From IMG/VR virus record IMGVR_UViG_3300047319_000838, positions 1 to 36,359 of that record: 36,359 nucleotides of DNA. One strand, given 5' to 3'. The stretch is from a virus. The notes below the pieces were generated by a model that worked only from the letters and a program-made list of their open reading frames with translations, did no database searches and had not been told where the DNA came from. Numbering within the stretch: the stretch's first letter is position 1; each line of letters starts with the position of its first letter. Both the position numbers and the translations under genes were made by a program. This document shows positions 2,957 to 36,359 of the stretch, piece by piece.

Positions 2957-4315
2957 TTAAGCCTCAGAACTTGAGTTTAGATCAATAACATTGCGAGCGC
3001 CATGTCGAGTAGATTCAGGAACAGCGTTTGGAAGTTTCTGTCTAATCAAATTAATGTAATAACTTTCCACGTCATCTGATGACTTTCGAACCGAAGAAAT
3101 TGCTTGAAGAGCTAGTCGAGTATTTTCTTCAAGATAACGCCTATATGTTGAGTCTTCTGGCTTAATATGTCCAATCACTTTTGCACCCTCCGATTTTTTA
3201 GATGGCCACTTCCAGTTTTGATCCAGAGCGGCGCCTATCAACTTTTCACTTAATTTGTCATAATTCTCACTTAATTTAATGAGAACAAAATCAATTCGTT
3301 CTTGACCAAATTTATTAATCAAGTTACTTGCCTTTTCTTCTGAAATTTCAAAAGTCAATAATTTATTTTTTAAACAAACAAATTTATCTTTCATGGTTGG
3401 TATTGTACCACAATCTGGCTTTAGCCCCAAGATATTAGTATTGTTTTCTTTAAAGATCTTCTTAGATCTTTGATCTATAGAGTTGGGTGGCAGAAATGAT
3501 CTCAACTGGGTGGCAGAAATGATCTCAACTGGGTGGCAGAAATGATCAGAACTAATATTTTTATCCACAACGGTATTGGTTATAGGTATAGGTTTATCCA
3601 CAGATTTTTCAAATATATTATTGATAATAGGTACATTGTTATCCACAAATAGATTGGCGATAGGTTTTTCAAATTTCATTTTTACCTCCTGATGATTCAC
3701 GCTATAAAACTTTCCTGACCTATTGTTTTGAATATCAGATAACTTTGAAAGAATAAGATTATCTTTTTCAAATTTATAAAATATTTCTCTTAGCAAACGC
3801 TTGCAGATAAATGGAGCCCATGTATTAATTTCAGAATATGTTAGCCAAATACTTTCTTTTTCATAAATTATAATGTTAAAATTTAACTGTTGAATAATGC
3901 CTGCAGCTGTAATTCCAAATTCCTTGGCTATAGTTGGTAAAATTAAGAGCGGTTTCTCATGCTCATTAATTAGATTTATTATTGAACCATCATCAGTACA
4001 TTTAAACCCCCATTTTAGAAGTTTTTCATAATTAATAATTAACTTAGAACCTAACATTTGGTTTTTAGATTTAGTTAAATCAATAAGATTTATATTCACT
4101 AATTGAACAATAATTCTTTTTAATTGGGGGATGCTTATGAAAGGAATTCTTTCATGTAACTTCGGGTATGTAATTAAATATTCTTCTTGATTTGATTTTG
4201 ATTTCTCATAATGTATCTTTTGAAGAACAAGAGCTAAGGCTGGAGATTTGTTAATTTTCAAAGCTAAAGAAGCCAATAGTTTTAAAGGAGGCTCATCAAT
4301 TAAAAGTTTAGACAC
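2957..4315 (-). CDS. Replication initiator with two winged-helix-like domains and an internal origin
   Basis: A 452-residue protein read as the replication initiator. Start choice: the frame opens at TTG (about 4321), but GTG two codons on has GAGGG 8 nt upstream. Two similar helical segments follow each other: ALALVLQKIHY...LITYPKLHERIPFISIPQLK...VNINLI (about 28-80) and AAGIIQQLNF...IWLTYSEINTWAPFICKRLL...KDNLI (about 138-190). Both look like winged helices, the layout of iteron-binding plasmid initiators such as RepE/RepA. Residues about 220-280 are a linker encoded by the iterons and DnaA boxes. The C-terminal part ends in EKLIGAALDQNWKWP, like the end of helicase-loading or DnaD-like regions. 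No ATPase or polymerase motif is seen. I infer that it melts the origin with DnaA and recruits the host helicase. Confidence 0.7.
   Translation of the reverse strand: MSKLLIDEPPLKLLASLALKINKSPALALVLQKIHYEKSKSNQEEYLITYPKLHERIPFISIPQLKRIIVQLVNINLIDLTKSKNQMLGSKLIINYEKLLKWGFKCTDDGSIINLINEHEKPLLILPTIAKEFGITAAGIIQQLNFNIIIYEKESIWLTYSEINTWAPFICKRLLREIFYKFEKDNLILSKLSDIQNNRSGKFYSVNHQEVKMKFEKPIANLFVDNNVPIINNIFEKSVDKPIPITNTVVDKNISSDHFCHPVEIISATQLRSFLPPNSIDQRSKKIFKENNTNILGLKPDCGTIPTMKDKFVCLKNKLLTFEISEEKASNLINKFGQERIDFVLIKLSENYDKLSEKLIGAALDQNWKWPSKKSEGAKVIGHIKPEDSTYRRYLEENTRLALQAISSVRKSSDDVESYYINLIRQKLPNAVPESTRHGARNVIDLNSSSEA
3452..3471. repeat. 8-bp inverted repeat beside the iterons
   Basis: AAAGATCT (3452-3459) and AGATCTTT (3464-3471) are a perfect inverted repeat around TCTT. 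It lies 13 bp from the first iteron inside the initiator gene, and may be part of the origin architecture or chance. An AT-rich stretch follows at lower coordinate (about 3357-3395). Confidence 0.4.
3485..3553 (+). repeat. Three tandem 23-bp iterons (replication origin)
   Basis: Head-to-tail copies at 3485-3507, 3508-3530 and 3531-3553. The unit is GGGTGGCAGAAATGATC followed by TCAACT. Copies 1 and 2 are identical, and copy 3 has AGAACT at its end (2 mismatches). Twenty-three bp is close to two helical turns, as in plasmid iterons. Because 23 is not a multiple of 3, the initiator frame reads the unit in all three frames (HFCHP, IISAT, SFLPP). The amino-acid sequence is therefore not what is conserved; the DNA is. 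Confidence 0.88.
3561..3647 (+). other. Cluster of three consensus DnaA boxes (replication origin)
   Basis: TTATCCACA, the E. coli consensus DnaA box, occurs at 3561-3569, 3594-3602 and 3639-3647, all in the same orientation, starting 8 bp after the last iteron. Iterons next to DnaA boxes are the classic layout of P1, F and pSC101 type origins. Location inside the initiator gene resembles lambda ori within gene O. On the coding strand the boxes encode the repeated VDK/VDN residues of the linker. Confidence 0.88.
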
Positions 4316-4413
4316 GCGCAAATCCCTCGCAAGTGAATGAAGTTAGTTGAGTTAAATGATATTCGATAGAAAGAAACTGAAAATTACTATTGACTATTCT
4401 GTTGTATTTGTTA

Positions 4414-4428
4414 TCATATCGCATATGA
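4414..4428. promoter_or_regulatory. Palindrome TCATAT-CGC-ATATGA upstream of the replication gene
   Basis: A perfect 6-bp inverted repeat around CGC, about 100 bp before the replication start. On the minus strand it overlaps TATGAT, a possible -10, so it could be an autoregulatory operator for the initiator. This is an inference from position and symmetry only. Confidence 0.35.
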
Positions 4429-4927: not shown

Positions 4928-5686
4928 CTAGAATGTGAAAATTAACCCTAGCCCGTATTGCATGCTGTTTCGAGGCGTACAAGTTCGAACTGCCCGGCTA
5001 TGCTTTGGAAAGCGCCTACGTATTGTATCTACTGTTTTAGCCTGAAGTCTATCTGTATTTTCCCATGAGACTAAAGCCCTTAGGCTAAGGCAATCTGTGA
5101 GAGCATATTGAGCCCCTCCAATTAACCGAAGTACAGCCTTTCTTTTTTTCATTGAAGTATAGATAGAGTTTGATACTACAAAAGTATCATCGGGATCTCG
5201 AACAAATGGGTCATTAAATTCAACTTCTGAACGAGTAAAGATATTTCTTACTTGTAACTTCAAGTTTGCCATACCAACAGAACCTATAAGCTTAAGCTTA
5301 CTATCTGTAATGACTGGAAAAGAAACTAAAAGATTTAAGTTCCATCCTGATATCTTAGATGAAGCTCTGTTTATGTCGACTGTATTGATGACAAATAATG
5401 ATTGAGTAATAGGATTATGTTTACCAAATACTACTTCATTAGATAAGTCGTTTCTTAAAGACTGTTGCTTTTTAGAAAACTCATAACCAATTTCTAACCC
5501 TAAGTTTTGGTTAAACATTACACCTGCAAAAGCATTTCCTTGTGGATAATGAGATTCAAGAATGTTTCCGCCAAAGTCTTTTCTGAAGGTTGTATGTCGT
5601 AATTGTGAATCGAAGCCAATATAAGGAGTAGCATAAGAAATTGATAGGAGAGAAAGAGAAATAACACCGATTAATACTTTAATCAT
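4928..5686 (-). CDS. Phage-encoded outer-membrane beta-barrel protein
   Basis: A 252-residue protein with a classic signal peptide: MIK, a hydrophobic core (VLIGVISLSLLSI) and cleavage predicted after SYA. The mature part alternates polar and hydrophobic residues in strand-like blocks (PYIGFDSQLRH, AFAGVMFNQNLGLEIGYEF, AVLRLIGGAQYAL, SLRALVSWE) and ends GLGLIFTF, with the terminal phenylalanine that directs barrel assembly. It resembles small OmpA/opacity-type barrels. GGAGG lies 7 nt before the ATG, and a separate promoter lies at 5721-5749. An independently transcribed barrel gene suggests a moron that alters the host surface, for example to block superinfection or modify a receptor; that role is inferred. 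Confidence 0.85.
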   Translation of the reverse strand: MIKVLIGVISLSLLSISYATPYIGFDSQLRHTTFRKDFGGNILESHYPQGNAFAGVMFNQNLGLEIGYEFSKKQQSLRNDLSNEVVFGKHNPITQSLFVINTVDINRASSKISGWNLNLLVSFPVITDSKLKLIGSVGMANLKLQVRNIFTRSEVEFNDPFVRDPDDTFVVSNSIYTSMKKRKAVLRLIGGAQYALTDCLSLRALVSWENTDRLQAKTVDTIRRRFPKHSRAVRTCTPRNSMQYGLGLIFTF

Positions 5687-8556: not shown

Positions 8557-9369
8557 TTATATAGACTCTTCTTCTTTAATTGCATATGCCGGTATCGATA
8601 TTTCTTGGAAACATTCCTCATAACCGGGCCATTCACCTGTGCTCATGCACTCATGGTATATAGCTGCAGCATCTAAATACTCTCTTCTACCCTGTCTAAT
8701 GGTCGGTTCATTTAACACGAAGCAAGCGGTCAGATATGGCGCCTTGTTCTCAACAACCATAAACCCGAAAAACCGGTCCTTTCCGTCATGGTGCTTCAAG
8801 CCGTCAATTTGCATAGCTGCCTGTCTGTGATAGCCGAAGTTATGAATAGACTTTGAAAAGCTCTTAATAGAGTCAGTCGTCTTTATATCGACAATCATGG
8901 TGTCATTATAAAAGTCAGGCCTAGCCCGAAGTCTAGTGTTATAAATACCCGCATCCCAAAGAACTGAATGCTCAACGTTTCCGGGAATTATTTTGTTCCA
9001 CGTGGCGCTGCCCTTGATAGAATCAGCCATATCAACTGCCTGTTCCCATGTTCCCTTCCGCATAATGGTTCTTCCGATAGCGTCTAGTTCTGCTTTAGCT
9101 AATGCTTCCTTGCCAGCTTTAGTTCTCAGGTCGCAAGACTCTCTCATAAGATAATAAGTCTTATTGAATAGCTCTGGCTCTAGGACCAGCATATGGACCG
9201 CGCTGCCAAGTTCCATAGCGGTTGTAGGTTCACTTGGAGCTTTTTCTACGTACTTGTGGAAATATCTTTTAGGACAGTCTATAAGTAGTGTAATGCCACT
9301 TGAACTAATGCCTTCAGATGAGTGATACTCAGTAATAGATAAGTCGGTGTAAATGCCTGCGTGTCTCAT
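8557..9369 (-). CDS. RecE-like PD-(D/E)XK exonuclease
   Basis: 270 residues from the ATG at 9369, which has AGGAGA 6 nt upstream; the longer frame to 9435 runs through the promoter and is rejected. It fits the exonuclease VIII-like PD-(D/E)XK group. Visible are SAVHMLVLEPE with H59, RPDF with D152, VDIKTT with D161 and K163, and YHRQAAM with Y180 and Q183: the metal-binding and catalytic set in order. The expected activity is 5'-3' resection of double-stranded ends, giving single strands for the RecT protein. The E. coli RecE protein is far longer, but this length matches its nuclease domain and phage homologues. Confidence 0.88.
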   Translation of the reverse strand: MRHAGIYTDLSITEYHSSEGISSSGITLLIDCPKRYFHKYVEKAPSEPTTAMELGSAVHMLVLEPELFNKTYYLMRESCDLRTKAGKEALAKAELDAIGRTIMRKGTWEQAVDMADSIKGSATWNKIIPGNVEHSVLWDAGIYNTRLRARPDFYNDTMIVDIKTTDSIKSFSKSIHNFGYHRQAAMQIDGLKHHDGKDRFFGFMVVENKAPYLTACFVLNEPTIRQGRREYLDAAAIYHECMSTGEWPGYEECFQEISIPAYAIKEEESI

Positions 9370-9541: not shown

Positions 9542-9766
9542 ATGGCATATAAAGATACTCTGACACTATATGAAGAACTTGTGATTAGTGGAACTCCAGA
9601 AGCACAAGCAAAAATAATGGCACATCAACAAGGGGCTTTAGCCGATGAAATGGGAAGTATTGAGAAAACATTGAACCGAATAGAGAAAGATCTGTTTTGG
9701 ATGCGTATTATAGGCGCAGCAATGGTCGTTAGCTTTATGTCTAACATATTCTGGCTTGCAAGGTAG
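9542..9766 (+). CDS. Small coiled-coil/membrane-anchor family protein, member A
   Basis: 74 residues in three parts. The first is a conserved head, MAYKDTLTLYEELVISGTPE then AQA. The second is a helical middle with IEKTLNRIEKDLFWMR. The third is a C-terminal membrane segment, IIGAAMVVSFMSNIFWLA. GAGGT lies 7 nt before the ATG. At least six relatives lie in this genome (9778, 10822, 11058, 11257, 23060, 23474). The layout recalls bacterial CCDC90/DUF1640-type coiled-coil proteins but is shorter. Function unknown; a membrane-anchored oligomer is the simplest reading. Confidence 0.8.
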   Translation: MAYKDTLTLYEELVISGTPEAQAKIMAHQQGALADEMGSIEKTLNRIEKDLFWMRIIGAAMVVSFMSNIFWLAR

Positions 9767-10821: not shown

Positions 10822-11043
10822 ATGGCTTACAAAGACTCGTTAACGTTATACAACGAACTCATAGCTACCGGAATATCTGAATCACAGGCACAAATACAAG
10901 CCCAACAATTGGGCGGTGTAACTGATTTGCTAGTGAAAATAGAAAAAGATTTAAGTTGGATGAGAATCATTGGGGCCGGAATGGTCGCCGCATATATTGC
11001 TAATCTGGGCGGAATTTTAGGATTAATTGTACTTATGAAGTAA
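10822..11043 (+). CDS. Coiled-coil/membrane-anchor family protein, member C
   Basis: 73 residues: head MAYKDSLTLYNELIATGISE with SQA, a helical linker ending VKIEKDLSWMR, and a long C-terminal membrane segment IIGAGMVAAYIANLGG followed by ILGLIVLM. It is nearly superimposable on member A, with an IEKDLxWMRIIGA core conserved. AAGAGAAT precedes the ATG. The C-terminus is longer and more hydrophobic than in A. It leads a run of three tandem copies, the other two broken. Confidence 0.8.
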   Translation: MAYKDSLTLYNELIATGISESQAQIQAQQLGGVTDLLVKIEKDLSWMRIIGAGMVAAYIANLGGILGLIVLMK

Positions 11044-11695: not shown

Positions 11696-11887
11696 CTCTT
11701 TTTCTGTTTCTTCATTAATTCGTTTAATCTCTTGATCACGTTTCGTTAGTATTTCTTGCATATCTTCGAAACTAAAAGCCATTAATATTTCTTCGGCTAC
11801 AATATCATATTCACGTTCTATCTTCAATGATTGTAATCTAAGAAGAGCTTGGATAATGTAATATACATCTGAGTCGTCATTCTCCAT
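11669..11887 (-). CDS. 72-residue charged helical protein, unknown
   Basis: Starts MENDDSDVYYIIQALLRLQS and ends in a highly charged helix (EIKRINEETEKELIKYKAKN). It is the last of five overlapping minus-strand genes downstream of the lysis region; its ATG overlaps the preceding stop as TAATG. Its 3' end overlaps convergent family fragment E by 27 bp. No known family. Confidence 0.65.
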   Translation of the reverse strand: MENDDSDVYYIIQALLRLQSLKIEREYDIVAEEILMAFSFEDMQEILTKRDQEIKRINEETEKELIKYKAKN

Positions 11888-12234
11888 TAAAACCCATCAT
11901 ATATTCCTGGCTTTATGCCTTTACTCTCGTAGTTATAAAACTTTTTCCAATTAGGGTCTTTCTCGCATTCTTCTAGTGTTTCACTATGGAATTCTTTTAG
12001 TTCTTTAAGCATTTTAAAAGTACAGGGATTTTCTCCGTTATTAAATTTAGAAATTATATCAATAAATTCTCTATATTCATTATGTTCAACCCAATTCTTC
12101 TCTATATATGATAAAGATTCCAAAACAATATCAAAGATATTAATGACTCCATCTTCATCTAATGAATCTTCATATGGTTGAGAACAAATAACATCTAATA
12201 TTGCAGAGCGGATGATTTCTAGATATTTACTCAT
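11887..12234 (-). CDS. Tandem small-gene family, M(N/S)KY(I/L)EI type, 115 residues
   Basis: Starts MSKYLEIIRSAILDVICSQP, matching the openings of the two genes upstream (MNKYIEII..., MNKYIEIL...). The rest is acidic, helical and divergent. ATGA and TAATG junctions with both neighbours mark a coupled operon. No conserved domain is recognised; cytoplasmic, by absence of signal or membrane segments. Confidence 0.7.
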   Translation of the reverse strand: MSKYLEIIRSAILDVICSQPYEDSLDEDGVINIFDIVLESLSYIEKNWVEHNEYREFIDIISKFNNGENPCTFKMLKELKEFHSETLEECEKDPNWKKFYNYESKGIKPGIYDGF

Positions 12235-12488
12235 TCCGAATCAACTGTTTCCTTTAGATTAACAAGCATATCCATAATGTCACTATTATTTCTAGATTCC
12301 TCCCTAATTGTATTTACAATCTCATGAAATCCTTTATTGTAATTGTATGCCAAATATTCCATTGCGACATCAACAGTAGCAATTAACTTTATAGTGGTTT
12401 TTTCGTTAATTGGCTCTGAATAATCCTGACTTGTTAGTGCATTCTGTAATGCAGATTGTATGATTTCGATGTATTTATTCATCTTCAT
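12231..12488 (-). CDS. Tandem small-gene family, 85 residues
   Basis: MKMNKYIEIIQSALQNALTS then an acidic helical body. The frame opens at 12506, but ATG 12488 has AGGA 5 nt upstream, and ATG 12482 aligns with the start of the paralogues; both are plausible. It overlaps the end of the preceding gene by 14 bp and the next by ATGA. Homologous in its head to the flanking genes at 12786 and 12234. Confidence 0.68.
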   Translation of the reverse strand: MKMNKYIEIIQSALQNALTSQDYSEPINEKTTIKLIATVDVAMEYLAYNYNKGFHEIVNTIREESRNNSDIMDMLVNLKETVDSE

Positions 12489-12786
12489 CTTCTTCCTCCA
12501 TCTCATCCAGATAGAGTTTAGTGGCTAATTTTTTAAGATTGGTAACTTTTCTTTGGTTAACTATTAACCTAGACTTTAATTGTTGCATAGCGATTAAATT
12601 ATAACTCGCTCTCTCCTTCATAGGATCAGAATCTAAGAAATCAATAAAACAAGATAAAATATTATTTGAAAATTCATTTATCTCTACTACCTGGTCTATA
12701 TTTTCAATAGTATTTAATTTTAAATCTTGAACTTCGAATTGAATATCATTTAATAAACCATTCAAGATTTCAATGTATTTATTCAT
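12475..12786 (-). CDS. Tandem small-gene family, 103 residues
   Basis: Starts MNKYIEILNGLLNDIQFEVQ. The centre is helical with a basic segment (KSRLIVNQRKVTNLKKLATK) and the end is very acidic (DEMEEEDEDE). The DNA of that acidic tail doubles as the purine-rich ribosome site for the next gene. It begins inside the preceding stop (TGATG). Unknown function. Confidence 0.7.
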   Translation of the reverse strand: MNKYIEILNGLLNDIQFEVQDLKLNTIENIDQVVEINEFSNNILSCFIDFLDSDPMKERASYNLIAMQQLKSRLIVNQRKVTNLKKLATKLYLDEMEEEDEDE

Positions 12787-20861: not shown

Positions 20862-22967
20862 TTAAACACCAAGCCTTGCATCGGCGGTATAGTTAAAAAT
20901 TATTCCATCTCCCAAAGCAGAACCTACATTAGATGTTGCAGATACATTAAATTGCCTAGTAGTAGTTTGGTTAACGATTGTAGTGTTACAATCTGCCGTT
21001 ATTGTCTTATCCCACATTTCATTATTGTTATTAACCGGATTATATATAATAATTGCCGGAGGAGTTACTTTAGTTGTTATAAAAGTATGACTAGGCGCAT
21101 ATATAGTTGATGCTGCAACATTAGCTTGAGCAAATGAATTAACTCCAACCAAAATACCTGTAGCTGGAACGGTTCCCGGTTCAAAGGACATTTCATAGTA
21201 ATGCATACATCTTTGTTGGGCTATGCTTCCTGTTTCAGGAGCGGGTCTAGTTGGAACATTTCCTGGAACTAAAGAAATAGAATCTATATTTACAACATTG
21301 GCTGCCGTTAAGGATGCAGTGCCAACCACTATCGCAAAGAATGTCGCAGTATTGGTTGCTGCAATACCATTCAAATCCCAACCACTAAACCCATAGTTAT
21401 TGAAATTAGTGGTATTAGGGCTAGCCCCTATTGTAAATGTAGCATCTCCAAGACCACTTCTAGGAACTTCAGACCAGTTTCCATGGAATGTTGCCGGCTT
21501 TCCTGTTGCGTTTAAGGTAGCAACAATAGAGTTATTAGCGGCACAGCTAGGTAACGCAGCATCAGTTGTATACCAGAGCGAGATTTTAGCTTGAAGACCT
21601 GCGACTTGATTAGTAAATGCAGCTACATTAACAGAATTACGGTCATTCAAAATCATTCGAGCTACAGATTGCTCGAGATATTGAACTAAAGCAAACTGTG
21701 TCGTATTAGTTGCCGTTATGGTCAAGCATCCATTAGTTCCACGTGAAACCGCTGGTCCACTATTGGCAGTCTGGAATACGATTGTCTGGTCCCATACATA
21801 TCGAGATGTGTTAGCACCGGCAGCACTTGCAGCCAGAGTAGGGCCTAAGAATTGCGTAGGGTTTAAGGCAAAGTCCCATCCAACTAGATAGCTAGAGATA
21901 GGCTTATAGGCCAAATCTGGAACAATGATATCGATTAAATCGGATTGCTGGAATCTAACTGGTACTTGCTGATAAGGAACGTTTTGAATGTTCGTTTCAA
22001 TCCCTACAACCTGAATGCTTGTGATGCTAGATGGATTAACGGGAGATAAGACTACGTTAATATTCACATAACCATTAAGACCGGTATCCGTATTAGCAGC
22101 GGGCAACAGCTGTACAGTATTGGTATATTGTTGAGGACCGCCAGATAAATTGGTTCGGGATAAAAGTGTCTGTGGGTTTCCAGCGGTAGCTTGTGATGGC
22201 GCATAAGTAATAGTTGCTGTTGTATTGTTACCTAGCGTTATATTCGTTGCGACAAAGCCATTCGCCCCACCTGTTTTCGGACTCCAGATATCAGGCGTAT
22301 GATTTAAAGTCTGAGTAAGTGTAACTGCTGTAACATTGGATATGGGTGTAATATCCAGTGTGTAAGGAGGGTTAGTCGGCAATTGCGATGAGCCTGCTAC
22401 CGGCGTTTGAGCGACAGTTAAGGAACCCGCGGCACTAAAAGTTACTGACAAACTCCACTCTGGCGCAATAGGTGTAACCACTGTCCCGGCGCCCCCTGAT
22501 GATATCGTCAAGGGCGCGCCAGGCACAAAGGAAATAAACGCAAATTGAGGATTAGCGATTAAATTAGGTAGATATACACCAGATGCACCACCATTACCCT
22601 GCTCACCGAAATAGTTCGGCCAAGCTTCACGAGTAAACTGAGGTACGGCTAAGAAATTCTGAACAACCACATAATATTGTTCGAGCACTGCATCTGCAGC
22701 CGTTGAACTCCAGGGGAAGTAATACAACGCTACATTATCGCCATTATTATTCTGTATGGTTCCCAGAGCGCTTAGTACGATTGGATTAGGCAATGCCGTG
22801 TAGGTATAGTTTGGAGGCGAACCAGTAAGTTCGTAAATCGGTTTTAACGTATTGCGTGCAAGGTCTTGGTAAAAGTAAACGAAGCCTCCAGCAAGAGGGG
22901 CGCCAGTATCTTTGTCAACTAGTAAGGGCTCTAAATCACGAGAGACAACGTAGCGCGAATCAAGCAT
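20862..22967 (-). CDS. Tail spike/fibre protein, 701 residues
   Basis: Opens MLDSRYVVSRDLEPLLVDKD, TGAPLAGGFVYFYQDLARNT: an N-terminal domain found in podovirus spike or fibre proteins (GAPLAGGxVYFY... followed by NPIVLSALGTIQNNNGD). A long beta-rich body follows. The C-terminal third (GAANTSRYVWDQTIVFQTAN, RQFNVSATSNVGSALGDGII) has the look of a carbohydrate-binding or jelly-roll tip. GGAGT precedes the ATG. It heads the fibre group and probably attaches directly to the tail hub. No enzymatic motif is obvious. Confidence 0.75.
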   Translation of the reverse strand: MLDSRYVVSRDLEPLLVDKDTGAPLAGGFVYFYQDLARNTLKPIYELTGSPPNYTYTALPNPIVLSALGTIQNNNGDNVALYYFPWSSTAADAVLEQYYVVVQNFLAVPQFTREAWPNYFGEQGNGGASGVYLPNLIANPQFAFISFVPGAPLTISSGGAGTVVTPIAPEWSLSVTFSAAGSLTVAQTPVAGSSQLPTNPPYTLDITPISNVTAVTLTQTLNHTPDIWSPKTGGANGFVATNITLGNNTTATITYAPSQATAGNPQTLLSRTNLSGGPQQYTNTVQLLPAANTDTGLNGYVNINVVLSPVNPSSITSIQVVGIETNIQNVPYQQVPVRFQQSDLIDIIVPDLAYKPISSYLVGWDFALNPTQFLGPTLAASAAGANTSRYVWDQTIVFQTANSGPAVSRGTNGCLTITATNTTQFALVQYLEQSVARMILNDRNSVNVAAFTNQVAGLQAKISLWYTTDAALPSCAANNSIVATLNATGKPATFHGNWSEVPRSGLGDATFTIGASPNTTNFNNYGFSGWDLNGIAATNTATFFAIVVGTASLTAANVVNIDSISLVPGNVPTRPAPETGSIAQQRCMHYYEMSFEPGTVPATGILVGVNSFAQANVAASTIYAPSHTFITTKVTPPAIIIYNPVNNNNEMWDKTITADCNTTIVNQTTTRQFNVSATSNVGSALGDGIIFNYTADARLGV

Positions 22968-22990
22968 GGAGAGACTCCTTTAGAAATAGT

Positions 22991-23019
22991 TTGCAAAAGG
23001 TGACCAATGGTGATACTAT
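22991..23019 (+). promoter_or_regulatory. Candidate promoter for the antisense family genes at 23 kb
   Basis: TTGCAA (22991-22996), 17 bp, TACTAT (23014-23019), 41 bp before the ATG at 23060. The matches are 4 of 6 each. It provides a plus-strand start within the minus-strand late block. Confidence 0.45.
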
Positions 23020-23059
23020 GGTTGATAGATAATTCAATATTTTTAAAGGAGCACTGAAT

Positions 23060-23467
23060 ATGGTCAATACTGACATGATTAAGCGATACAATGAATTGCG
23101 AGCATCTGGCATATCAGATGAGCAAGCTTTAACAACAATAAGCACTTTAGAAACAATGATATCCGCTGTCGCTGATAAAATGGCAACAAAAGAAGAGCTA
23201 AGTCGTGTTAGGGAGGATATTAATCGGCTAGAAAAATCTTTAACTGATAAATTTAGCTCATTTGAAAAATCTTTAAATGATAAATTTAGTTCACAAGAAA
23301 AATATTTCGCTGATAAATTTATCTCATTTGAATCTTTGTTCACTAATAAACTTAACTCTTTAGAGTCTGTATTGTCGACAAAAGTTAATTTTATACTTTG
23401 GGTATTAGGTGCTTGTGCTTTATGTGTAATCGGAGCCTGCTTTAAACAATATTTTCCATGGGGGTAA
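23060..23467 (+). CDS. Coiled-coil/membrane-anchor family protein, member F (hendecad repeats)
   Basis: 135 residues. The head TDMIKRYNELRASGISDEQA matches members A-E. KMATKEELSRVREDINR follows, then five 11-residue repeats (LEKSLTDKFSS, FEKSLNDKFSS, QEKYFADKFIS, FESLFTNKLNS, LESVLSTKVNF), and a C-terminal membrane segment ILWVLGACALCVIGA. AGGAG lies 9 nt before the ATG. Hendecad coiled coils ending in a membrane anchor are typical of CCDC90/DUF1640-like proteins. It is transcribed opposite to the late genes around it, from its own candidate promoter, so it is likely made at another time. Confidence 0.8.
   Translation: MVNTDMIKRYNELRASGISDEQALTTISTLETMISAVADKMATKEELSRVREDINRLEKSLTDKFSSFEKSLNDKFSSQEKYFADKFISFESLFTNKLNSLESVLSTKVNFILWVLGACALCVIGACFKQYFPWG
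23228..23392 (+). repeat. Five tandem 33-bp imperfect repeats
   Basis: Each 33-bp unit encodes an 11-residue hendecad of member F. Units 1 and 2 are most alike (both run through AAATCTTTAA.TGATAAATTTAG), and the later ones have drifted. The stretch grew by tandem duplication, giving a coiled coil whose length can change in steps. Confidence 0.8.
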
Positions 23468-23473
23468 TATACT

Positions 23474-23668
23474 GTGACAAATTTTGACATATTTAAAAAA
23501 TACAGTGAGTTACGTGATTCTGGCATTCCAGATGAACAAGCTAGGGCATTCGTAAATTTTGTGTTGGAAATATTATATAGAGATATTACTAATATCAATG
23601 CTTCTTTTAATCGTGAAATAAATGTCATAAAAGAAGATATTAAGAGATTAGAAAAACTTTTAAAATAG
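23474..23668 (+). CDS. Coiled-coil family protein, member G
   Basis: 64 residues with a GTG start 6 bp after member F. The head TNFDIFKKYSELRDSGIPDE with QARAF matches the family, and a charged helix (INVIKEDIKRLEKLL) ends the protein. There is no membrane segment of its own. However, a 21-residue membrane peptide follows directly at 23680, so the anchor may have been split off by a frameshift or encoded separately. Confidence 0.7.
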   Translation: MTNFDIFKKYSELRDSGIPDEQARAFVNFVLEILYRDITNINASFNREINVIKEDIKRLEKLLK

Positions 23669-23679
23669 GAGTAGATACA

Positions 23680-23745
23680 ATGTTTTGGTGTATATTTTTG
23701 ATTATTCTTGGCGCATGGATATATGCAGTTGCTGATAATATGTGA
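23680..23745 (+). CDS. 21-residue membrane peptide
   Basis: Reads MFWCIFLIILGAWIYAVADN then M and stop. AGGAG lies 9 nt before the ATG. Nearly the whole peptide is one membrane helix. It follows member G by 11 bp and ends 7 bp before the convergent ejection-protein gene. It might replace the missing anchor of member G. Confidence 0.5.
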   Translation: MFWCIFLIILGAWIYAVADNM

Positions 23746-23752
23746 GAATATA

Positions 23753-25159
23753 TTAATCATGATTACCACCAAAGAAATGATTATATCCCAATGCGCCGCC
23801 CAAAGCTGTTCCTGCAATTCCAGTGCCTATTCCCAATCCTTTTCCAAATGTTGGTATATATTTCCTGGTTTCCAATGCGGGATGTTCTCTTCTACCAACT
23901 CTATGCATAAACTTTTCTTCATTGCCTAATGCATATAGGAAAGCTGGGTCTCCCATTTCATTTCGCCTATAAGCTGCAATTGTAGGGCTTGTATTATAAG
24001 GTACAACATCTCGTCTATATCCATTATTTAATGCTCTGTATCTTTGTGTAAATTCTGGTGATACCTCATTAAAAGCATCAGTTAAAGACCTAGAAACATG
24101 ACGTCTAGCATTTCTTAAGTCTCTTAAATTTCTCTTTTCAAGACTTGATAATCTTTGGGTTGCTGAACTTTTATATATATCATGAATCTCATTTCCTAAG
24201 TCACTTCTTAATCTACTAGCAACTTCAGGGGTGGGATTAGCTTGAAACTCTCTTAATACATGAGCCAAATCACCCGGATTTCTTTGTCTCAAACGATTAT
24301 AGTTAATATTTCTTGGGGGAGTAACAAAACCACCTCCAGCTTGAGCAAAATCTTGATAAAATTCAGGGAAAAGTTGATTTCTATATAGGTTACTATTAGC
24401 ATGACCCGTAGCATTTACAGTGTGAGCAAGATGTTGCGGGCGCAGTGCTTGAGTGGTATTTCTAATACCTCTCCCACCTGCCATAGTTGTATTATATAAA
24501 GCATTTCCTAATGGTGTTGCAAGTCCCGCAAGAAAACCTGTTGCAGCATTAGATGCTCTAGAGTCTCCAGGGTTAACATATTGTGATGCCCCACTAATAC
24601 CTCCTAATGATGCGCTTCCTGCCAATGTAGATAAATTTCTTCCCATAGGTAACAATCCAGTTCCACCGGCTGCGAATCCTGGTATTGTTTTAGCCACTTC
24701 GCCACCAGCATACCCACCCATTGCACTTAATGGATTTAGCTCTTTTTCGGCCTTATAATCAGCTTCCCTTCTATTAGCCACACTTCTAGAAGCTTCAGAA
24801 ATAGGCATGCCTTCATATTGTGGCTTAAGATTCTCTGGTAAATATTTTTTTAACATTGGTCTTAAAAAATTTGCTATTGGGTCTAAGTATTTACTTGAAA
24901 ATTCACTCTCAGCAAAAGGCTGAATAATTCCATGAGAAGTATTTGCAAATGATGTATTTCCACCGGTAACGCCAGACATAAGCTCGCTTACCAAAGCTTC
25001 TTGTGGGGTTAACTGTGCTTGTGCATCCCAAATCTGTTGTTGTCTAGATAGTTGTTTTTTAGGAAGAACAATTCCACGTTCAGCAAATAAATCACGAGTA
25101 GGAGACCCCGATTTTTTAGGTATAACAATTCCTCTTTCTGCGAACAAGTCTCTTGCCAT
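23753..25159 (-). CDS. Ejection-type virion protein, 468 residues, with duplicated N-terminal motif
   Basis: The position after two other ejection-type genes and the composition fit a DNA-ejection protein of the P22 gp16/gp20 class. The N-terminus has two copies of RDLFAERGIV(I/L)PKK (about 3-16 and 22-35). Residues about 145-230 are glycine/alanine-rich and partly hydrophobic (GGYAGGEVAKTIPGFAAGGT, ATGFLAGLATPLGNALY), as in proteins that insert into the host envelope. A charged helical part follows, then a C-terminal hydrophobic GKGLGIGTGIAGTALGGALG. No lytic motif is visible. It would help carry DNA through the envelope, by analogy. Confidence 0.65.
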   Translation of the reverse strand: MARDLFAERGIVIPKKSGSPTRDLFAERGIVLPKKQLSRQQQIWDAQAQLTPQEALVSELMSGVTGGNTSFANTSHGIIQPFAESEFSSKYLDPIANFLRPMLKKYLPENLKPQYEGMPISEASRSVANRREADYKAEKELNPLSAMGGYAGGEVAKTIPGFAAGGTGLLPMGRNLSTLAGSASLGGISGASQYVNPGDSRASNAATGFLAGLATPLGNALYNTTMAGGRGIRNTTQALRPQHLAHTVNATGHANSNLYRNQLFPEFYQDFAQAGGGFVTPPRNINYNRLRQRNPGDLAHVLREFQANPTPEVASRLRSDLGNEIHDIYKSSATQRLSSLEKRNLRDLRNARRHVSRSLTDAFNEVSPEFTQRYRALNNGYRRDVVPYNTSPTIAAYRRNEMGDPAFLYALGNEEKFMHRVGRREHPALETRKYIPTFGKGLGIGTGIAGTALGGALGYNHFFGGNHD

Positions 25160-34296: not shown

Positions 34297-36359
34297 CTAC
34301 TCAATGATATCCACTTCCATATTCTGACCTTCTTGATGATGCTTTGCAATATCAAGCGCCACATCTATTGCCTCTCGTGCCATCTCGGCATCTACACGTT
34401 CTTGTTCGATGGCTTGCTTTACCTTTCCGCTTTCAATGTCAGACATGAGCTTAATAAATTGTAGCTGCACCTTTTCTTTCTCAACTGCAATTTTGGCGGC
34501 CTCTACAGACATCTTGCCCTGATCTGCCTCACGACGTTGTTCGGTCTGCATCTGGGTCTTTTCTAATTCCATCTTAGCGAACTGTTCAGCATCACTTGGA
34601 GGAGGAGGTTGTTGCTTCATCTCTTCTTGTTCTTTCATGAACTCTTCAGCCTGTACCTTAAGATGGTCAATGCCTCTGATATCCATGTTGTCAAGAAGAG
34701 TCTCAAGACCTTTCTCATTAATAAAGGCTGCAAACATTGGGCTAGCCTGCATCATTGCAGTTATTTCCTCAAGAGCCATTTGTTTTTGGATATTAGAGTT
34801 AACACCAGCTTCTACCTTAACGCATAAGTCATTCGGGTCATAGTTCATCATGATAGCATCACGCAAGGTTGCATCATTTATTAATTGATAAGAGCGTTTC
34901 CCATTAGATTTCATTATTGGAAGACTTCTGGGCGTCCTGTAATACTTTGGAATCAAGTCAAGCATCACCTGAGCAATTCTATTAAGACCCTTAATGTACC
35001 CCATGAGATAAGGCATTGCGGCACCATTTGATTGGAGTGCGCCCTGTTGTATGGCTTTGCCGCTTAGAGCATCCGAATTAACTGCAAGTGCCGTATCATA
35101 GCTGCCTAGAATCATTTGCGTAGTTTGGTCAGAGCCGTTGAATATCGCCTGTACAAGAGCTGGAGTTTCCGACCTTTGAATCTCTTGGGGCGGCGGTAAG
35201 GGGACGTCTGGATTCTTGTCGAAAAATGCGTTGTAGACCAGCACTGACATAACCTGTACATTCTTATACGCATCTTTATATTCCTCTGGTATTGACTCAA
35301 GAGCTACCTTGAACTTATGCATGACCATGTTCTGAATTTCAGCACCGATGGTTTGTCCGGCAAAGTTCTTGAGCTTTTGCATGCCCATAGCGTGAAAAAC
35401 GAAGGGTCGAGTCATCTGATAAGTAGCACCATTTTCCCCGTCACGCATATTGATAGAGTTACCGTCTATGAATATAATTGGCAAGAATTTGAAATCCGTT
35501 TCAACATAATCCAATATGCCAAGTTCACAGAATCGGTATCTACAAATAGTTTGAATGACGGTTCGTCTTTCTTCAATCACGATTGGACATTGCTCAATGA
35601 AGCCTGCATCAGCCCACATTGTTTGTAGAAGCTTATAATCATGCTTTGTAATAATATGACCATTAGATAACTTAACAATAGTTACCTTTTTATCTTTCTT
35701 CTCATAATAATCACAAACAAGAACAATCTCTTGTTCAGCATTCTTATAAGACCAGTTGAAGTTACTATCTAGGTTTCTTGAGAAGTTAAAGCCTTTAGTT
35801 TGGATGTCTGGAAATTCTGCGTTAAATTCTTCAACAGTCCATGGAACTATCTTGAAGCAATAGCGACCATCGCCCTTATGAGATTCTCGAGCTAATGGGT
35901 CAAATCCGGTTAAGGTTGGGTCGAATACGCGCTCTACTCTAATCTTTTGTTCAAATGACATTTCGTTTATATAATCTGTGTATACTTCCACAGCAGAATA
36001 ACCGCCTGCAAGTAAATCAGAATAAATATTATATTCAAGAGAATCATTAGTGGCATCAAAAAATACCTCACGAAGATGAGCCTCTAAGACTTCCATCGTT
36101 GCTATAAATTCTGGAGTTAAAGAATCAACTCGTATTCCATCAGCCGCTCTTACACTAACTGATGGCTCTTGTTTGGAAAACTCGCCTCGAAGTCTAGATA
36201 TAATTGCCTCTAAGATATTAAATTCAATTGGGGGTTTTTGTAATGTCTTTAGGTTCTGAATCGTTGGGTCGTCAAGTGCCGTTTTAAAAACAAATCGTAC
36301 AAACATATGATAACGCTTTGCGTTCTCTTCAAAGTATCCGTGGGCATCTTCAACATTTT
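34297..36359 (-). CDS. Portal protein, main part (N-terminus continues at 176-1)
   Basis: With the N-terminal 34 residues across the join the protein has 703 residues. It forms the dodecameric ring at the capsid vertex through which DNA enters and leaves, and is docked by the terminase. Visible are a clip/wing-type body (EVYTDYINEMSFEQKIRVER, YCFKIVPWTVEEFNAEFPDI), a stem region (GAEIQNMVMHKFKVALESIP), and a long C-terminal coiled coil (EEMKQQ...MELEKTQMQTEQRR...AAKIAVEKEKVQLQFIKLMS). The last part corresponds to the extended helical barrel of P22-type portals. The methionine at 36306 is internal, not the start. The stop is at 34297, 99 bp before the DUF6582-like gene. Confidence 0.92.
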   Translation of the reverse strand, partial: NVEDAHGYFEENAKRYHMFVRFVFKTALDDPTIQNLKTLQKPPIEFNILEAIISRLRGEFSKQEPSVSVRAADGIRVDSLTPEFIATMEVLEAHLREVFFDATNDSLEYNIYSDLLAGGYSAVEVYTDYINEMSFEQKIRVERVFDPTLTGFDPLARESHKGDGRYCFKIVPWTVEEFNAEFPDIQTKGFNFSRNLDSNFNWSYKNAEQEIVLVCDYYEKKDKKVTIVKLSNGHIITKHDYKLLQTMWADAGFIEQCPIVIEERRTVIQTICRYRFCELGILDYVETDFKFLPIIFIDGNSINMRDGENGATYQMTRPFVFHAMGMQKLKNFAGQTIGAEIQNMVMHKFKVALESIPEEYKDAYKNVQVMSVLVYNAFFDKNPDVPLPPPQEIQRSETPALVQAIFNGSDQTTQMILGSYDTALAVNSDALSGKAIQQGALQSNGAAMPYLMGYIKGLNRIAQVMLDLIPKYYRTPRSLPIMKSNGKRSYQLINDATLRDAIMMNYDPNDLCVKVEAGVNSNIQKQMALEEITAMMQASPMFAAFINEKGLETLLDNMDIRGIDHLKVQAEEFMKEQEEMKQQPPPPSDAEQFAKMELEKTQMQTEQRREADQGKMSVEAAKIAVEKEKVQLQFIKLMSDIESGKVKQAIEQERVDAEMAREAIDVALDIAKHHQEGQNMEVDIIE
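36233..36359. repeat. Right copy of the 127-bp terminal overlap
   Basis: Identical to bases 1-127. Joining the two copies restores the portal frame and closes a 36,232-bp circle. Confidence 0.95.

Follow-up and report, generated by a model that had tools for sequence, protein, structure and literature searches.

The segment at positions 3350-3650 of the virus sequence analysed here (36,359 nucleotides, hereafter the window) is probably a phage theta-type origin of replication; it lies within the initiator gene, where the encoded protein is predicted to form a disordered linker. DnaA boxes, tandem iterons and an AT-rich island are found side by side in this segment (Table 1). The boxes and the iterons are read on the plus strand and the gene on the minus strand, so that both are antisense to the gene. 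A preliminary description of the same DNA had proposed an origin of iterons and DnaA boxes inside the initiator gene. The comparisons given below support this proposal at the level of sequence, and the AT-rich, GATC-bearing flank at 3350-3483, which the description had missed, completes a canonical origin.

The window represents a complete circular virus genome because it carries a 127-base direct terminal repeat (1-127 is the same as 36233-36359) and because the order TerS-TerL-portal is consecutive across the join of its ends. The unique circle has 36232 bases. The sole hint of a host is a 13-kb contig (L087) with a 71% identical terminase in an uncultured Legionella bin. It could be a binning error, and a matching terminase was found in none of the 142 further genomes of the order of this bin (143 searched, the bin counted). 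No tRNA or Rfam matches were found.

The phage had been described as having no polymerase or helicase gene of its own, and none was detected, nor was a loader of the IstB/DnaC type. Profiles of DnaB_C, IstB/DnaC-type proteins and integrases gave no match in the window or in the records of three relatives (L008, L010 and L073), and PHROGs scans of the early-region ORFs and most structural ORFs returned no helicase, loader, integrase or polymerase family. No loader was seen by profile searches, but many small genes of the genome are unannotated, and a divergent phage loader is possible. Among the small genes are two paralogues at 9542-9766 and 10822-11043 (plus strand), whose products have the form MAYKDxLTLYxELxxxG... 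and a possible membrane segment; a similar small protein is encoded at 6466-6762 of the relative L013. Three consecutive small ORFs at 11887-12786 (minus strand), with the starts MSKYLEII, MNKYIEII and MNKYIEIL, are likely paralogues. A 33-bp tandem repeat of about three copies (23230-23354) lies antisense within the ORF 22960-23817 and is probably a protein repeat, since its period is a multiple of the codon length.

The initiator gene and the elements within it

Table 1. Positions of the initiator gene, its predicted protein domains and the elements of the candidate origin in the window
Feature	Position	Strand	Remarks
Replication initiator gene	2957..4321	-	454 aa, TTG start; whole origin within
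First winged-helix domain, residues 13-103	4013..4285	-	AlphaFold2, high pLDDT; family HMM
Second winged-helix domain, residues 114-210	3692..3982	-	Same HMM; AlphaFold2 model
Predicted disordered linker, residues 220-314	3380..3664	-	pLDDT below 50 (AlphaFold2)
C-terminal helical domain and long helix, residues 315-429	3035..3379	-	AlphaFold2
DnaA box 1	3639..3647	+	Exact TTATCCACA
DnaA box 2	3594..3602	+	Exact TTATCCACA
DnaA box 3	3561..3569	+	Exact TTATCCACA
Iteron copy adjoining boxes	3530..3552	+	Repeat family D1; 2 mismatches
Middle iteron copy	3507..3529	+	Repeat family D1; identical TGGGTGGCAGAAATGATCTCAAC
Iteron copy adjoining AT-rich island	3484..3506	+	Repeat family D1; TGGGTGGCAGAAATGATCTCAAC
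AT-rich island, candidate unwinding element	3350..3483		GATC at 3455, 3465, 3472

The product of the gene is a replisome-organizer-type initiator. Its residues 4-105 match phrog_6493, 'DnaD-like helicase loader' (E=1.2e-15), the protein also matches phrog_11233, 'replication initiation protein' (E=2e-4), and phage replication initiators and replisome organizers are among the viral proteins nearest to it in structure. By the tests made, its sequence places it with the phrog_6493 kind and not with RepA_N, Phage_rep_O or Rep_3: the RepA_N Pfam domain had no match in it at E<=1, Phage_rep_O had no Pfam match and the Rep_3 family no match. In the PDB, Foldseek found nothing at E<=0.001, and searching solved structures by sequence yielded no more than generic winged-helix or chance matches. 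The direct search with the protein found no relative in phages and one weak match in a plasmid.

A family HMM, built only from 26 distant relatives of the initiator, matches the protein twice, at residues 3-103 (i-E 7e-14) and 117-215 (i-E 4e-12), and the two winged-helix halves align with each other by BLASTP (E=3e-5). The winged helix is therefore duplicated. The first winged helix is the probable iteron reader, and the C-terminal helical part probably functions as a module for a host factor or for self-association. Mapping of the coordinates places in the linker-encoding DNA all the boxes, all the iterons and the greater part of the AT-rich island. In the stretch 4274-4423, which covers the start of the gene and its upstream side, the DNA identity to L008 and L010 is raised as well (0.73-0.95); this stretch is possibly a promoter or leader.

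The three 23-bp iterons are real, although the array had been placed one base off register (3485-3553 instead of 3484-3552). The tandem-repeat score is 41, against a best of 12 in 40 shuffles. The period of the iterons, 22-23 bp, is not a multiple of the codon length, and the three copies are translated in the minus-strand ORF as SSDHFCHP, VEIISATQ and LRSFLPPN, that is, in three frames, as had been pointed out. The few matches to a single repeat in plasmid and viral records have unrelated surroundings and seem to be due to chance.

The three exact DnaA boxes were found where they had been reported. They lie in one frame of the gene and are read as VDN, VDK and VDK. About 0.4 exact boxes are expected per genome by chance, and three on the same strand within 87 bp occurred in none of 2000 order-1 shuffles. 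GTG accounts for only 14% of the valine codons of the genome and, given the protein, codon choice alone would produce all three exact boxes with a probability of about 7e-5.

Exact boxes also occur elsewhere. A fourth one in the window (5541-5549, minus strand) lies outside the initiator gene, in a gene for an OmpA-like outer-membrane protein; L008 has one in its OmpA-like gene (4073-4081), offset from the ORF start by 137 bases as in the window. A convergent pair of exact boxes, 26 bases apart, is conserved outside the initiator gene in L013 (1384-1418) and L028 (847-881). When clusters of paired boxes were collected from viral contigs, a tandem repeat was found nearby in 6 of the 82 clusters listed and in 5 of 410 random stretches; most of those six were repeats of the box itself or lay outside initiators.

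Conservation in related phages

Relatives were found through the large terminase at 80 loci, many of which are fragments. Full-length homologues of the initiator are few (three). Clear homology to the initiator over its entire length was seen in L008 and L010. L008 has a 92% identical terminase and a 37% identical initiator, and the corresponding values for L010 are 90% and 34%; L002 and L005 are identical in DNA to the window. In the alignment of L008 and L010 to the window as the reference, the DNA identity is highest in the gene at the AT-rich island (82-88%), falls to 54-59% in the remainder of the gene past the island and to 50-53% in its N-terminal half, and is 30-34% at the boxes and linker and 21-29% at the iterons. 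The preliminary view that selection acts on the DNA of this segment thus holds, but not in the form proposed, namely that the iteron DNA would be conserved: the iterons are replaced wholesale, and the conserved DNA is the AT-rich flank.

The A+T content of the island is 60-82% in 40-bp windows. Identical residues of the window and L008 are encoded by the same codon at 27 of 28 positions in the island and at 67 of 123 elsewhere (Fisher P=7e-6). For L008 and L010 the counts are 27 of 29 and 117 of 179 (P=0.001), and for the window and L010 the island count of 16 of 19 is not significant (P=0.10). Synonymous changes in the island are therefore nearly nil in two of the three pairwise comparisons. 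Small insertions and deletions shift its reading frame, so that L010 reads RSLKKTILIPWG and the others KIFKENNTNILG or RSFKDNNTNIMG from nearly identical bases. The three GATC sites of the island are kept in the window, L008 and L010, and the stretch 3455-3547 holds 6 of the 30 GATC sites of the genome, three of them inside the iterons. An unwinding element under selection at the DNA level should have these features. If the iterons ended at a recombination boundary, the step in the identity profile on one side could be explained as well, but neither the drop on the opposite side nor the low synonymous change could.

At 3394-3420 of the island, L008 and L010 read TTGTGGTATAATACCAACC, which is extended -10-like and palindromic, and the window has TGGTACAAT. 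The motif of L008 and L010 may be a promoter that provides transcriptional activation; a promoter scan of the region found no more than is expected by chance.

The order of boxes, 22-24-bp iterons and AT-rich DNA is common to the terminase relatives, and their iteron sequences are entirely different. In L008 the iterons are 22-bp copies of AAAGTCGCAAAAGATCGGGACT, three of them in tandem and a fourth less exact, and there are two boxes; L010 has three 22-bp copies of AAAACCGAATTTCAGCGGGACT and two boxes. L013, L028 and L073, whose terminases are more distant and whose initiators are different, follow the scheme too. In L013 and a group nearly identical to it, an initiator of the HTH_36 type is accompanied by two 24-bp repeats and three boxes; L028, with an initiator of the same group, has two imperfect 24-bp repeats and two boxes. 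L073 has three 22-bp iterons and two boxes. Its reading frame stops immediately before the iterons, which shows that iterons need not code, and the iterons are followed by three AT-rich 13-mers, TAATAACATTACT, TAATAACATAACT and TAATAACAAAAG. A scan independent of the terminase detected L180, in which three boxes, AGTTACC/GGTAAC iterons and AT-rich DNA follow in this order inside another HTH initiator. The combination, which had been thought unusual, is therefore not unique to the window, as it is present in relatives whether their initiator is of the same kind or unrelated. The arrangement is looser in other relatives. L025, L058 and L076 have repeats and a single exact box of varying side or orientation (in L025 and L076 it is on the opposite side of the iterons), and L032 has repeats and no box. 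Many of the wider phrog_6493 relatives carry 21-25-bp repeats after the first domain and no exact DnaA box, so that the boxes are not universal.

The elements, their order, the constraint on the DNA of the boxes and the island and the exchange of iterons between relatives are thus established from the sequences compared. Near-identical terminases and islands, related initiators and three unrelated iteron sequences together provide a handle on the co-evolution of origin and initiator: with three such relatives, the protein changes responsible for a switch of specificity can be identified and put to the test.

A model of initiation and its alternatives

We infer the following course of initiation. 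The phage initiator would use its two winged helices in tandem to bind the 23-bp iterons, and host DnaA would occupy the adjacent boxes. Together they would bend the DNA and open the GATC-bearing AT-rich island beyond the iterons. Host DnaB would then be loaded through DnaA, the DnaD-like part of the initiator or both, given that the phage has no recognisable helicase or loader. The DNA of the segment would be an origin first and a spacer second, so that the protein tolerates any reading frame. If so, other loader-less phages are predicted to lean on DnaA boxes in a disordered linker. The GC skew, suggested earlier as a check, has no minimum at 3.5 kb and was counted against an origin there; the detrended minimum is at 9145, and the range is within that of block shuffles, which makes the skew uninformative.

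A broader generalization can be offered tentatively, at somewhat less than even chances. The origin would be one of a modular in-gene type of phage origin, in which the iterons and the DNA-binding half of the initiator are swapped or diverge fast among close relatives, the boxes and the frame-indifferent island are fixed, DnaA replaces the loader, and the layout has arisen in, or spread to, several unrelated families of initiators.

The dependence on DnaA is the point at which the closest alternative departs. The phage initiator could fire the origin unaided, as in lambda or pSK41, with the boxes having no role in DNA opening or helicase loading and only tuning timing, DnaA titration or transcription through the gene. 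Phage relatives of the N-terminal domain have linker iterons without exact boxes, the in-gene origin of staphylococcal RepA_N plasmids works with no known DnaA boxes (PMC5703833), and the description of the lambda origin names O iterons and an AT-rich tract (PMC5043065). We nevertheless consider this reading unlikely, because two or three boxes of the same orientation adjoin the iterons in four types of initiator, exact boxes have a cost in codon choice, and the profile searches show no P- or DnaC-like loader that would make DnaA dispensable.

An origin with DnaA participation is also preferred to two readings in which the repeats would not be part of an origin at all. Autorepression through iteron-like sites is common among plasmid initiators, and the repeats could accordingly be an autoregulatory operator or an incompatibility array that controls expression or copy number, with the origin elsewhere. 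This is very improbable: the array is in the middle of the gene, distant from its start and from the conserved upstream stretch at 4274-4423, and it adjoins a conserved AT-rich island and DnaA boxes, for which an operator has no need. The least probable reading is that the repeats are multiple terminal repeats of an IS21-like element, whose ends the repeat in the window may resemble in sequence, or a neutral expansion of coding repeats, which a disordered linker would tolerate. It is contradicted by the absence of a tandem pair of the window iteron from 84,980 species genomes. Nor does the window contain an IstB match, the single matches elsewhere are chance-like, unrelated repeats occupy the same site in relatives, and the repeats of L073 are non-coding.

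Comparison with known origins

In lambda, DnaB is brought by the P protein; PHROGs, PF03796 and PF01695 found no such loader in the window, where a divergent one is possible. The placement of the candidate origin is that of lambdoid phages. Lambda and the Stx phages 933W and P27 have the origin inside gene O, and the likeness extends to its mid-gene position and to the combination of iterons with an adjacent AT-rich tract (PMC7466680; PMC5043065). In lambda, however, O dimers bind iterons that are inverted repeats of 19 bp (PMC5043065), whereas the window has direct 23-bp repeats, DnaA boxes and an initiator of unrelated sequence.

In the RepA_N system of pSK41, the binding boxes of the initiator are central in rep and encode a deletable linker, and the N- and C-terminal domains of the protein resemble DnaD (PMC5703833). 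The location of the origin within the gene and the disordered linker predicted for the window initiator would fit a similar design. No DnaA boxes were detected in the staphylococcal plasmids (PMC5703833), in contrast to the window, which also has a duplicated winged helix and no RepA_N Pfam match. The repABC plasmid p42d has its origin inside repC, where silent mutations showed that an AT-rich stretch is needed, and both iterons and DnaA boxes are absent from this gene (PMC3155836). It is thus like the window in having the origin and an AT-rich stretch within the initiator gene, and differs in the absence of the other two elements.

P1, F, pSC101, R6K and RK2 are known to combine direct-repeat iterons with DnaA boxes and with AT-rich DNA that opens (PMC5043065), and the boxes are located beside the iterons in P1, pSC101, R6K and RK2 (PMC5043065; PMC3155836). 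In the window the three kinds of element, the iterons being direct repeats of about 20 bp, likewise adjoin one another. The DnaA-dependent iteron plasmids (P1, F, pSC101, R6K and RK2) have their origins outside the rep gene. The origin had been called plasmid-style, and this remains apt for its DnaA boxes, which are P1/pSC101-like, and not for its position and linker design, which resemble those of lambda O and pSK41. Rep_3 initiators have a pair of winged helices; with no Rep_3 match, the two winged helices of the window protein are a functional resemblance only. The replisome organizers of phrog_6493 share a homologous N-terminal domain with the initiator, and many have 21-25-bp repeats in the linker. 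These wider members differ from the window in being without exact boxes and in having one N-terminal domain in the best alignment.

No phage initiator gene with both iterons and DnaA boxes was found described in the open-access literature, the coverage of which was incomplete. The candidate origin is best read as intragenic, lambda-O- and pSK41-like in its placement and P1/RK2-like in its use of DnaA boxes. In-gene origins were known already, and so were iterons combined with DnaA boxes; what sets the present, apparently little-described variant apart is the presence of both in a phage initiator gene, with iterons that are exchanged between relatives and an island that is indifferent to the reading frame.
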